Origin: Cognatiluteimonas profundi
GTDB lineage: Bacteria; Pseudomonadota; Gammaproteobacteria; Xanthomonadales; Xanthomonadaceae
Reading direction: 5' to 3'
DNA length: 64,000 bases
NCBI RefSeq assembly: GCF_009792795.1
Contig: NZ_VKHQ01000003.1
Location: 673,601-737,600 of the forward strand
In this document: in pieces, positions 16,473 through 20,503 of the stretch
How positions within the stretch are numbered: the first letter of the stretch is position 1
How the letters are laid out: every line of letters begins with the position of its first letter
Translations under genes and position numbers: made by a program
Notes under the pieces: model-generated
Told to the model about the DNA's origin: nothing
What the model saw: the letters and a program-made list of their open reading frames with translations, nothing else
The model's database searches: none

Positions 16473-18848
16473 ATGGCCATCTGGTTGAAGCGCATCGCCG
16501 TCGCGCTGACGGTCCTGCTGATGCTCGCCGGCCTGTCCGGATGGCTGCTGCTGCGCGGCAGCCTGCCGACGCTGGACGGCGCCATGTCCCTGCCCGGCCT
16601 CTCCGCGCCGGTCACGATCCAGCGCGACCACCTGGGCGTTGTCACGGTCGACGCGGCCAACGAACTCGACGCCATGCGCGCACTGGGTTACGTGCATGCG
16701 CAGGAACGTTTCTTCGAAATGGACCTGATGCGGCGCACCGCGGCGGGAGAGCTGGCGGAGCTCTTCGGGCCCATCGCCGTGAAGACCGACAGGCAGCATC
16801 GCGTGCATCGCATGCGCACGCGCGCCATCGAGGACCTTGCGACGTTTGCAGGTCCCCAGCGGGCGGTGTTGCAGGCCTACGTCGAGGGCATCAACGCCGG
16901 GCTTTCCGACCTGAAGGTACGGCCGTGGCCGTACCTGCTGCTGCGCACCAAGCCCAGGCCATGGCAGCTGGCCGATACGCCGCTGGTGGGTTTTGCGATG
17001 TATTTCGACCTGCAGGATGCAGGCAACCAGCGCGAACTGGCGATGTCGCGGATCCGGCAGGTCGTGCCGCCCGTGCTGTATGCGCTGCTGTCGCGCGATG
17101 GCACCCGATGGGATGCGCCGCTGATGGGACAGGCGCGCGGTGATGCCGTGCTGCCCGACGCGGCGGAGCTCGACCTGCGCACGTCGCCCATCCCCCGGCA
17201 ACCGCGTCCGCTTGCGGACCTGCCCGCCGCGGCGCAGGACATCGGCAGCAACAGCTTTGCCGTCTCCGGTGCACTGACGAGGGACGGACGCGCGATCGTC
17301 GCCGACGACATGCACCTGGCCCTGCGGGTGCCGAACATCTGGTTCCGGGCGCGCCTGCGCTATCGCGACGCGCAGGCACCGGGGGGTAAGGTCGACACGT
17401 CCGGCTTCACGCTTCCGGGCTTGCCGATGGTGGTGGTCGGCAGCAATGGCCATGTCGCATGGGGGTTCACCAACAGCTACATCGACACCGCGGATTGGGC
17501 TGCCGTTCCCGGATGTCACCAATCGACCGGTCCGCGCACCGCGTGCCTTCCCACGGCCCATGAACGCATCGCCGTTGCCGGTGCGCCTGACGTGGATCTT
17601 GCCGTCGCCCAATGGACTGCAACCGTGCCCGTGCCCGTGTTGCAGACCGATGCTGGCGGAGACGATCTCGTCGGCTACTGGGCGGCGCAGGCCAAGGGCG
17701 CGGTCAACCTGGATCTCAACGAACTGGCGCGCGCCGATACGCTCGACAACGCCATCGCCCTCTCGGCGCCGGCGCGCATCCCGACGCAGAACATGGTGAT
17801 CGTCGACCGGGCCGGGCAGGCAGCGTGGACGCTTGTCGGAGGCGTCCCCGATCGCCGGCCCGATTGCCGCGGCAACCTCGCCTTCGACCAGCGCTGCATC
17901 GGCTGGCGACTGCGCGACAAGCCCGAGGTGGCCAGCCAGATCGATGGCTCGCGACTGTGGACCGCCAACAACCGGATCCTGGACGGCGCCGCACTCGCGC
18001 AGCTCGGCAATGGCGGCTATGCGCTGGGCGCGCGCGCGAGGCAGATCCGCGACGACCTTCTGGCGAAAAACACCTTCACCGAACGCGACCTGCTGGCGAT
18101 CCAGCTCGACGACCGCGCGGTGTTCCTGCAGCGCTGGTGGCAGTTGCTGCAGTCCACCGCGACCAGCACACGGTCGCCGGCGCTCGACGCGCTTGCCGAG
18201 GCGGCCAGCACCTGGGACGGGCATGCCAGCACCGACTCGGTCAGTTACCGCGTCGTGCGTGCGTGGCGACTGGCGGTCCATGCACGCCTGCTCGATGGCC
18301 TGACCGCGCCCGCGCAGGTCGCGCTCGGCGAGCGCTTCCTGATGCCCGACCTGCCGCAGTTCGAAGGCGTGGCCTGGCCGCTGGTGACGCAGCGGCCGCG
18401 CAACCTGCTGCCGCGGCGCTTCGCCAGCTGGAATGCCTTGTTCGAGGATGCCGCCAGGGCGGTTCGCGACGACCCGGACGCGCAGGGGACCTTGTCCAGC
18501 CGCACCTGGGGCGAACGCAACACCGCACGCATCTGCCATCCGCTGTCGAAGGCGCTCCCGGCGTTCGCACGGGGATTGTTGTGCATGCCGTTCGATCCGC
18601 TGCCTGGCGACAGCAACATGCCGCGCGTCGCGGGTCCGGATTTCGGCGCCTCCGAGCGCATGGTCGTGTCGCCGGGACACGAAGCCGATGGCTTCATCCA
18701 CATGCCCGGCGGGCAAAGCGGGAATCCGCTATCGCCCTACTGGGGTGCCGGGCACGAGGATTGGGTCCATGGCCGCGCGACGCCTTTCCTGCCGGGCAAG
18801 GCGGAGCACACGCTGCACTTCGTTCCCGGGCTGAGAAGCGGGCATTAA
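16473..18848 (+). CDS. Penicillin acylase family (Ntn) hydrolase
   Basis: A 791-residue precursor of an Ntn hydrolase. An N-terminal hydrophobic segment (about 8-27) directs export or anchors it. The region GYVHAQERFFEMDLMRRTAAGELAE is the conserved alpha-chain signature, and the autocleavage site with nucleophile Ser259 is in GSNSFAVSG. The usual GSNxW motif has Phe here instead of Trp. VVVGSNGHVAWGFTN is also typical. Family members include penicillin G acylase and acyl-homoserine lactone acylases such as PvdQ. AHL degradation or periplasmic amide hydrolysis are both possible, and the substrate is not determined. The ATG at 16473 lies just after GGGGGG. The last codons and TAA are inside a repeat element (see 18818-19004). 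Confidence 0.85.
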   Translation: MAIWLKRIAVALTVLLMLAGLSGWLLLRGSLPTLDGAMSLPGLSAPVTIQRDHLGVVTVDAANELDAMRALGYVHAQERFFEMDLMRRTAAGELAELFGPIAVKTDRQHRVHRMRTRAIEDLATFAGPQRAVLQAYVEGINAGLSDLKVRPWPYLLLRTKPRPWQLADTPLVGFAMYFDLQDAGNQRELAMSRIRQVVPPVLYALLSRDGTRWDAPLMGQARGDAVLPDAAELDLRTSPIPRQPRPLADLPAAAQDIGSNSFAVSGALTRDGRAIVADDMHLALRVPNIWFRARLRYRDAQAPGGKVDTSGFTLPGLPMVVVGSNGHVAWGFTNSYIDTADWAAVPGCHQSTGPRTACLPTAHERIAVAGAPDVDLAVAQWTATVPVPVLQTDAGGDDLVGYWAAQAKGAVNLDLNELARADTLDNAIALSAPARIPTQNMVIVDRAGQAAWTLVGGVPDRRPDCRGNLAFDQRCIGWRLRDKPEVASQIDGSRLWTANNRILDGAALAQLGNGGYALGARARQIRDDLLAKNTFTERDLLAIQLDDRAVFLQRWWQLLQSTATSTRSPALDALAEAASTWDGHASTDSVSYRVVRAWRLAVHARLLDGLTAPAQVALGERFLMPDLPQFEGVAWPLVTQRPRNLLPRRFASWNALFEDAARAVRDDPDAQGTLSSRTWGERNTARICHPLSKALPAFARGLLCMPFDPLPGDSNMPRVAGPDFGASERMVVSPGHEADGFIHMPGGQSGNPLSPYWGAGHEDWVHGRATPFLPGKAEHTLHFVPGLRSGH

Positions 18849-18927
18849 AGGGGTCCAGCATTAAAGGGGGTCAGAGTGGAGTTTCGGCGCTTCGTTCCCG
18901 GGCTGAGAAGCGGGCATTAAAGGGGTC
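18818..18927. repeat. 72-bp-period partial duplication of the acylase 3' end
   Basis: A 38-bp sequence occurs at 18818-18855 and again, identical, at 18890-18927. It contains the last codons of the acylase gene, its TAA and the start of the CATTAAAGGGGTC element. A variant third core (CATTAAAGGGGGTC) lies between them, from 18859. The pattern suggests repeated copying or slippage of the element together with the end of the gene. Confidence 0.85.
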
Positions 18928-19004
18928 AGAGTGAAGTTTCGCGATGGGGATCTCCGCTGAATCACGGCGTGCCGGCGCGAAACTTCACTCTGACCCCTTT
19001 AATG
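18915..19004. repeat. 28-bp perfect inverted repeat (REP/MITE-like element)
   Basis: Two 28-bp arms, 18915-18942 and 18977-19004, are exact reverse complements and flank 34 nt. They begin CATTAAAGGGGTC and continue AGAGTGAAGTTTCGC. GGGGTCAGAGTGAAGTTT is a motif I associate with dispersed REP/RAYT-type or MITE-like repeats of Xanthomonadaceae. The transcript would form a very stable hairpin, so it could act as a bidirectional terminator between the convergent acylase and dapE genes. The outer CATTAA ends encode the stop codons of both neighbours. No transposase is present. Confidence 0.85.
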
Positions 19005-20129
19005 CAACAGCAGTCGCTCGATGAGTGCGCGGTACAGGTCCGGCAATGCATCCAGGTCAGCGATGCTGACGTGCTCGTCGACCTTGTGGATGCTGGCATT
19101 CACCGGCCCGATCTCGATGCATTGCGCGCCCAGCGGCGCGATGAATCGCGCATCGGAAGTGCCACCGCCGGTACTCTCCTCCGGCGGCGTGCCAACGAAG
19201 CGCGTGAGGACATCACGCGCCGCAGCGCGCAACGGACCTTCAGGCGTGTGGAACGGCTCGCCGCCGCGATGCCATTCGACGCGAAAGTCCAGGCCATGCC
19301 TGCGCAGGATGTCTTCGCATTCCTGCTCGAGTCGTTCCGCGCGCCACGTGGGGTTGTAGCGCAGGTTGAACAGGACCTGCAGCTCGCCCGGGATGACGTT
19401 GTTCGCCCCCGTGCCCGCATGCACGTTGCTGATCTGGAAGCTGGTCGGCGGGAACGATGCATGGCCCTCGTCCCACTGCCGTGCGGCGAGCTCCGCCAGC
19501 GCCGGCAGCGCCTCGTGGATCGGATTTCGCGCCTTGTCGGGATACGCAACGTGGCCCTGCACGCCCTGCACCGCCAACGTCGCCGACAGCGTGCCGCGTC
19601 GCCCGACGCGCAGCAGGTCGCCAAGCGCCTGCTTCGACGACGGCTCCCCCGTGATGCACCAGTCGATTGCCTGCCCACGCGTGCGGAATACCTCCGCGAC
19701 CTTGCGGACGCCATCGACCGCATCGCCTTCCTCGTCGGACGTCAGCAACAATGCGACGGTGCCATCGTGGCCGGGGTGCGCCGCAACGAAACGTTCGAGG
19801 GCGACCACGAAAGCAGCCACGCTGCCCTTCATGTCCGCAGCACCGCGTCCGTACAGGTTGCCGTCGCGCACTTCCGGGATGAAAGGATCGCTGCTCCACG
19901 ATCCTGCAGGGCCCGGCGGCACGACGTCGGTATGTCCGAGCAGTACCAGCACCGGCCCACCAGACCCATGCGTCGCCCACAGGTTGTCGACCGCGCCGAA
20001 ACGCATCGATTCGATCGCGAAGCCGGCCCGATGCAGTCGTTCGGCAACCAGCGCCTGGCAGCCCGCGTCATCCGGCGTGATCGAGGCGCGCGCGATCAGT
20101 TGCATGGCCAGGTCGAGCACGTCGCTCAC
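18999..20129 (-). CDS. dapE: Succinyl-diaminopimelate desuccinylase
   Basis: A 376-residue M20 metallopeptidase-fold enzyme of the succinylase branch of lysine/diaminopimelate synthesis. It cleaves N-succinyl-LL-2,6-diaminopimelate. Zinc ligands are visible in [12 protein letters not shown] (His66), GRGAADMKG (Asp99) and [10 protein letters not shown] (Glu133/134), plus a His near the end ([12 protein letters not shown]). The GTG start overlaps the yffB stop as GTGA, the same gene pairing as in E. coli. Its TAA lies in the outer end of the 28-bp inverted repeat. The protein still has its full-length family end, so function is probably intact. Confidence 0.95.
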
Positions 20130-20503
20130 TTGCGATCCCCGAAGCGCTGCTTGAACAGGTTGTCGCTGAAACCCTGGGTCACGGTTCCATCGGCCGACAC
20201 GACGACGGGACGGCGGATCAGTTGCGGATACTCGCGCACGAGCAGGTTCCATTCCGCGTCCGAGCCCGGCGCCTTGCGGTGCGGCGAGAGGTTGCGCCAC
20301 GTCGTGGAGGACTTGTTGATCATCAGGTCCCAGCCGCCGACGCGCTCCTTCCAGTCCAGCAGCGTTGCCGCCGACTGCGGCTGGTCGCGATAGTCGATGA
20401 AGACATGCGGGATCTCGAATCGCTCGAGCCAGTTGCGAGCCTTCCTGCAGCTGTCGCAATTTGCCAGGCCGTACACGTACAGGGTTGTCATGGATGCTTT
20501 CAT
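20126..20503 (-). CDS. yffB: ArsC/Spx-family protein YffB
   Basis: A 125-residue thioredoxin-fold protein with an N-terminal CDSC pair ([15 protein letters not shown]) and the ArsC-family ending [22 protein letters not shown]. The length and the CxxC-containing first strand-helix match YffB rather than a true arsenate reductase. YffB may be a glutathione-dependent thiol reductase, but its role is unsettled. The ATG at 20503 has a second in-frame ATG at 20491 (MTTLYVYG), which matches homologues better; neither has a strong ribosome-binding site. Its coupling to dapE is conserved across gammaproteobacteria. Confidence 0.88.

Follow-up and report, generated by a model that had tools for sequence, protein, structure and literature searches.

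A repeat lies between the convergent acylase and dapE genes in a 64,000-nucleotide stretch of Cognatiluteimonas profundi DNA (the window). This is very probably a non-autonomous palindromic dimer of the TIR class, joined by two satellite arms, that was mobilised by, or descends from, a TIRYT-type HUH tyrosine transposase. A copy landing at the very end of a coding sequence, among its final codons, would swap the native stop codon for one of its own. Sequence comparison establishes the dispersed copies, a TIRYT-like gene, the stop codons, the displaced native gene ends and their recurrence at other genes.

At the core of the element is a perfect inverted repeat. The sequence-only reading recognised this structure, assigning a length of 28 nt; the arms are in fact 30 nt long. 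The left arm (GCATTAAAGGGGTCAGAGTGAAGTTTCGCG; 18914-18943, forward strand) and the right arm (18976-19005, reverse strand) are separated by a 32-nt loop (18944-18975). Left of the dimer are two extra partial arms, both on the forward strand: degenerate arm 1 (GCATTAAAGGGGTC; 18842-18855) and satellite arm 2 (GCATTAAAGGGGGTCAGAGTGGAGTTTCG; 18858-18886). There is also a 41-nt direct duplication (98%, spacing 72; 18815-18855 and 18887-18927, forward strand) that contains the acylase end. Its first copy consists of the C-terminal acylase codons and GCATTAAAGGGGTC. The 38-bp exact repeat, described earlier as recurring 72 bp further on, sits inside this duplication.

Both gene ends fall within the repeat. 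The acylase gene (Penicil_amidase, PF01804; 16320-18848, forward strand) terminates at a TAA (18846-18848) in the tail of degenerate arm 1, and its C-terminal GH* is repeat-derived sequence. On the reverse strand, dapE (TIGR01246; 18999-20129) ends LLLH*. Here, the tail of the right dimer arm supplies the TAA (18999-19001), and the final codon, CAT, is also inside the repeat. Comparing open reading frame coordinates with the arms hence bears out the original proposal that the repeat provides both stops. The dapE start at 20129 was picked from homologues; the open reading frame itself spans 18999-20459 on the reverse strand. The nearest DapE relatives, in a search that may omit the window's own records, belong to a Lysobacterales MAG (82%), Thermomonas hydrothermalis (80%) and Luteimonas species (79-80% and lower). 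The arm GGGGTCAGAGTGA and its A-rich outer tail (in the window, GCATTAAA) hold stops in two frames and the window loop closes the third. All six frames are closed by the window dimer, as they are by one other among the ten dimers of the genus. Just outside several dimers the tails are tandemly duplicated, for example CTTTACCGCTTTACCG and CCTTTAATGCCACCTTTAATGCC (L014 near 1627, L027 near 1575, L292 near 1575 and window 18842-18869).

The repeat is multicopy, as the sequence-only reading had anticipated. The 2.71-Mb genome has 33 exact copies of the arm GGGGTCAGAGT and 0 of the reversed pattern. With one mismatch allowed, the counts are 50 and 13, respectively. The 33 exact arms are dispersed as dimers, clusters and singles, and 4 of the 9 genus genomes contain the arm. 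Across the family, 24 of 198 genomes have paired arms at a distance of 35-65 nt, with the reversed control at 0 in each; among these 24, the matches of G148 include runs of G and N. Loops vary among copies. The window loop has weak similarity to that of one G007 copy (0/500 shuffles, with no correction for 45 pairs), and 3 of 45 genus pairs appear related at z>3. Hence, we claim no conserved loop.

A stable hairpin between convergent genes might instead be kept as a bidirectional terminator or 3'-end protector, with stop overlap a by-product of tight packing. The location agrees with this, and the RNA structure predicted for 18830-19020 is much more stable than those of shuffled sequences (z -6.3, 0/200). 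However, a scan for intrinsic (Rho-independent) terminators, defined as a short G+C-rich hairpin plus a U-run, gave 0 sites, compared with 0.4 in shuffles. The hairpin is long and stable but a U-run follows neither arm, and the earlier expectation that the element probably terminates both transcripts is not borne out. Furthermore, some copies separate tandem genes, and dimers of other genera can sit inside long open frames. We consider a terminator or protector role unlikely as the explanation for the repeat, while noting that the stable hairpin may protect 3' ends. A comparison with Rfam returned two microRNA models, the best at 24.6 against a gathering threshold of 70 bits; these were taken as chance.

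Stops supplied by the element recur elsewhere in the genus. The window's genome (G000), G002 and G007 contain ten exact dimers. Codon-usage gene calls place 11 gene 3' ends no more than 100 nt from them. The stop is inside element sequence for 9 of these 11 ends, and for 10 of 13 when two imperfect dimers are added; the numbers are small. Five of the nine stops are TGA in the arm and four are TAA in A-rich tails. Of the tail stops, two are in satellite or degenerate arms (acylase and the left gene at C14:415k), and a third, that of the right gene at C14:470k, is borderline. The two remaining ends at exact dimers have stops 10 and 28 nt outside the element. At the imperfect dimers, one stop is 7 nt outside (C15:168k) and one is inside (G002:C1:845708). 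On the basis of the 42 genes called across the window, the average number of gene ends in a random 92-bp stretch is 0.060, and at least two ends occur at a frequency of 0.0028. For the 92-bp footprints of the ten dimers the expectation is 0.6, and 7 of the 9 in-element stops fall there. Hence, the tabulation suggested at the outset reveals that arms and tails often form stops in this genus.

The in-arm stop is read GGG-TCA-GAG-TGA, producing a common C-terminus, GSE*. Six proteins end this way: RuvB, AspRS and a GGDEF-EAL protein in the window's genome, RNase PH and a thioesterase-like protein in G002, and PepA in G007. The thioesterase-like protein was named by inspection and has no NCBIfam match. 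We checked the reading frame at 20 GTGA arms from 4 of the 9 genomes. Nine had no coding-like open frame and 11 did. Five of the latter (L299, L300, L301, L305 and L307) were dropped as antisense to the gene on that side. Four of them coincide with called gene 5' ends and L307 was judged by inspection, from the aspS-GNAT order in G005. Frames L300 and L301 would also read GSE*; the other three would not. All six sense-strand genes reading into a GTGA arm use the frame ending GSE*. GTGA arms, which contribute a second stop, occur among the matches listed only in exact dimers of this genus, and the window's own is the sole genome with a GTGA arm among 369 class genomes, few of which are from this family. 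The GSE* pattern, seen in six genes, hence rests on one genus.

A dimer is present at the end of pepA in both G000 and G007 (L189 and L197). In G000, where the gene was named by likeness to the G007 protein, an ordinary TGA precedes the dimer by 10 nt. The G007 gene instead has its stop within the dimer. The two sites have unlike loops and different stop usage. These dimers could reflect either one old insertion common to both genomes or separate insertions at a single spot.

We searched for relatives that lack the repeat and share the same gene ends; the ends differ instead. The dapE end is readable in 7 of 8 congeners, where it is LLR*, LLPG*, LLA* (three), LLG* or LLSAA*, with TAG, TGA or TAA. 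None of these congeners has the exact arm at dapE. For acylase, the ends are IPAGRSS* (TAG) in G005 and LLPAQ* (TAG) in G007, compared with VPGLRSGH* in the window. In G007, 24 nt without a repeat separate the acylase and dapE stops. At the G005 junction, the acylase stop is the TAG of a GTAG repeat unrelated to the window element. This GTAG repeat, GTAGGAGCGGCTT, has 24 exact copies in G005 (control 0), one of them at this junction. Hence, two different repeat families occupy one junction, each supplying a stop. Neither GSE nor GCATTAA was found at congener ends without the repeat (dapE readable in 7 of 8, aspS in 8 of 8 and ruvB in 5 of 8). These comparisons agree with the initial claim that the element sets both gene ends.

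The same ends could have arisen in another way. The repeat may have inserted just behind native stops that were later lost by ordinary mutation, so that repeat stops are merely next in frame. For 3 of the 13 genus gene ends, the gene's own stop is retained 7-28 nt before the arm, and stops kept before the arm are common in other genera. However, on alignment with G005, the native stops of aspS and ruvB, together with some nearby bases, have no counterpart in the window's genome. Protein length is nearly unchanged, AspRS and RuvB being of similar length across congeners. The shared GSE* frame of all six sense-strand genes entering a GTGA arm also argues against chance use of the next stop. We regard insertion behind the stop as rather doubtful. 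Judged by the alignments, the repeat has displaced native gene ends.

A RAYT-type gene had also been suggested as a target for searching. The genome contains three Y1_Tnp genes, one of which (C13:383443; L029) is RAYT-like and, by its motifs, TIRYT-like. It spans C13:383404-384120 and, by inspection, has NHVH and YIELNP motifs and ~240 residues. Pfam identifies only Y1_Tnp, with no C-terminal HTH domain, and the NCBIfam model REP_Tyr_transpos is missed (66.5 against an 80-bit cut-off). The gene is flanked by an arm, GGGGTCAGAGTGCACTTC, upstream and a diverged arm, ACCTGACCCC, downstream; the TGA of ACCTGACCCC is the gene's own stop. These arms read GTGCAC and GTGGAACC, and the window arm GTGAAG, so the inner arm part differs. 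Two more genes in the surrounding cluster end at a diverged arm, CTCTGACCCG. A second TIRYT-like gene (G000:C17:31471; L030) is 55% identical to the first. No GGGGWSAS motif is present within this locus, so a different type of end repeat may flank this gene.

TIRYT homologues (E<=1e-40) were detected in 63 of 198 family genomes, including 16 of the 24 dimer genomes (Fisher p=0.0002, descent ignored); the other 8 of the 24 had none at this threshold. We surveyed TIRYT gene ends at 30 loci among the matches listed. Full-length open reading frames, 25 in total, were present at 24 loci and absent from 6. Within this set, 10 of 25 use the TGA in the arm's TGACCCC as their stop codon, 10 more have an arm-like TGACC 6-30 nt beyond the stop, and 5 have none within 40 nt. 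In many lineages, then, the transposase gene is terminated by its own arm. This would be a simpler source of gene-end tolerance than the idea, raised initially, that the termini evolved to be tolerated at gene ends. The latter is only suggested, by the confinement of the in-arm stop GAGTGA to this genus among the matches listed and, in a set of 369 class genomes, to the window's own.

We favour the following mechanism for the TIR-class element. The HUH and tyrosine motifs suggest that TIRYT mobilises the arms, moving them as single-stranded arms or dimers. A copy would land in the final codons of a gene, where the native stop is lost, the element stop substitutes and protein length is about kept. 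Copies in last codons would survive because translation stops at once. We infer that TIRYT mobilises the element, that insertion is into the last codons and not immediately after them, and that copies are tolerated because the protein barely changes; movement of the element itself was not observed.

A broader version can be offered tentatively. Here, the TIR arm would be a mobile stop codon that ends the transposase gene and, as dispersed copies, gives host genes a ready-made end, GSE* in this genus. In addition, fold-back copying may write the end of one gene (GCATTAA) onto the opposite gene. If true, both stop codons in the window would stem from one event.

We also compared arms at 64 dimer loci (the window and L176-L233), using 64 of 85 forward matches and omitting all eight of G148 and parts of G036, G071, G092 and G108. 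Right sides were shuffled within each genome as the null. The two sides of a site resemble each other more than sides taken from different sites of one genome, both in the inner arms and, for some genomes, in the outer tails. For inner arms, this was seen in G092 (p 0.0004), G108 (p below 0.0002) and G000 (p 0.049), and not in G114 (p 0.34). For outer tails, it was seen in G000 (40 against 17.1, p 0.0008) and G114 (p 0.014), and not in G092 (p 0.12) or G108 (p 0.93). Such matching is what compensatory change or fold-back copying would give.

Dimers in other genera have a different relationship with genes. Most stops near them fall outside the element. The mean number of frames closed per dimer, of a possible six, is 4.90 in the genus (shuffles 4.19) and 2.98 for 54 dimers of other genera (shuffles 4.07). 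The low value fits the frequent position of these dimers inside long open frames. In seven other genomes (L204, L205, L206, L208, L214, L218 and L227), an in-frame dimer occupies one shared site of a long open reading frame, near position 2001. According to Pfam, applied to L208 only, this encodes an icmF-like methylmalonyl-CoA mutase fusion. The added peptide is of the type GQSxxS...DSDP, and the arms differ between genera. Pfam places further in-frame dimers (L199, L215, L229, L228, L202, L212 and L232) in helicases of HrpA-like domain order, at other icmF sites, in a TPR protein and in a DinG-like helicase.

At the level of sequence, these observations show how the ends of housekeeping genes can harbour a repeat: since the stop codon comes with the element, only the last residues are altered. 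They also connect this behaviour with the parent transposase, whose gene often terminates at an arm of this kind. Since unrelated repeat families at one junction in two congeners have the same outcome, gene ends become testable as insertion targets.

Among known systems, the closest are the TIR repeats and TIRtrons of TIRYT transposases; many of the terminal repeats around these Y1 transposase genes have the consensus GGGGWSAS (Di Nocera et al. 2013, PMC3733652). According to the available text, TIR copies occur as singles, dimers and groups, and the largest families are in Stenotrophomonas maltophilia. The consensus fits GGGGTCAG in both dimer arms, the copies described here are similarly dispersed, and a Y1 transposase gene is flanked by such arms, with inner arm parts differing from the window. 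In contrast, we noted no account of TIR arms as stops of TIRYT or host genes in the available text of PMC3733652; GGGTC and GACCC are absent from its main text, figures aside. A literature search for GGGGTCAGAGT gave no match on bacterial repeats, judged by titles.

In a separate classification, 20 of 26 TIRYT examples are in subclass 2.1, which has NHVH and YIELNP (Quentin et al. 2018, PMC6006769). In its motifs and length, the TIRYT-like gene resembles TnpAY1 proteins of this subclass, with their median length of 238 aa and TIR consensus GGGG[AT][CG]A[CG]; a C-terminal HTH-like domain would also be expected of a subclass 2.1 member. However, the available text of PMC6006769 reports no REP-like sequences by these genes, whereas here long hairpin dimers share the arm.

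It is very improbable that the repeat is a classical GTAG REP of a RAYT. The dimer layout and gene-end preference are the same as those of the REPs in the consulted part of PMC3733652. However, a GTAG or GTGG foot is absent from the arm, where the motif is GGGGTCAG and the hairpin base GCATTAAAGGGG, and separate GTAG repeats exist in the genus. With no GT[AG]G foot, the identity is contradicted by the sequence. As far as the text available to us goes, GTAG REPs often supply TAG stops (PMC3733652), and REPs often lie very near the rayt stop codon or directly behind it (PMC2817692). GTAG REPs and REPINs resemble the window repeat in being palindromic and at convergent gene ends, and their stop-adjacent position resembles that of the arm at the TIRYT end. 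They differ in foot and transposase subclass; here there is a TAA in the tail, a TGA in the arm and a fixed GSE C-terminus. Intragenic REPs and Rickettsia palindromic elements, as outlined in the same portion of PMC3733652, likewise give codons to host proteins. The window repeat, in contrast, ends proteins; in-frame copies are seen in other genera. Stop supply by GTAG REPs is hence already in print and, within the searches made, the repeat described here is an unreported variant in the TIR class.
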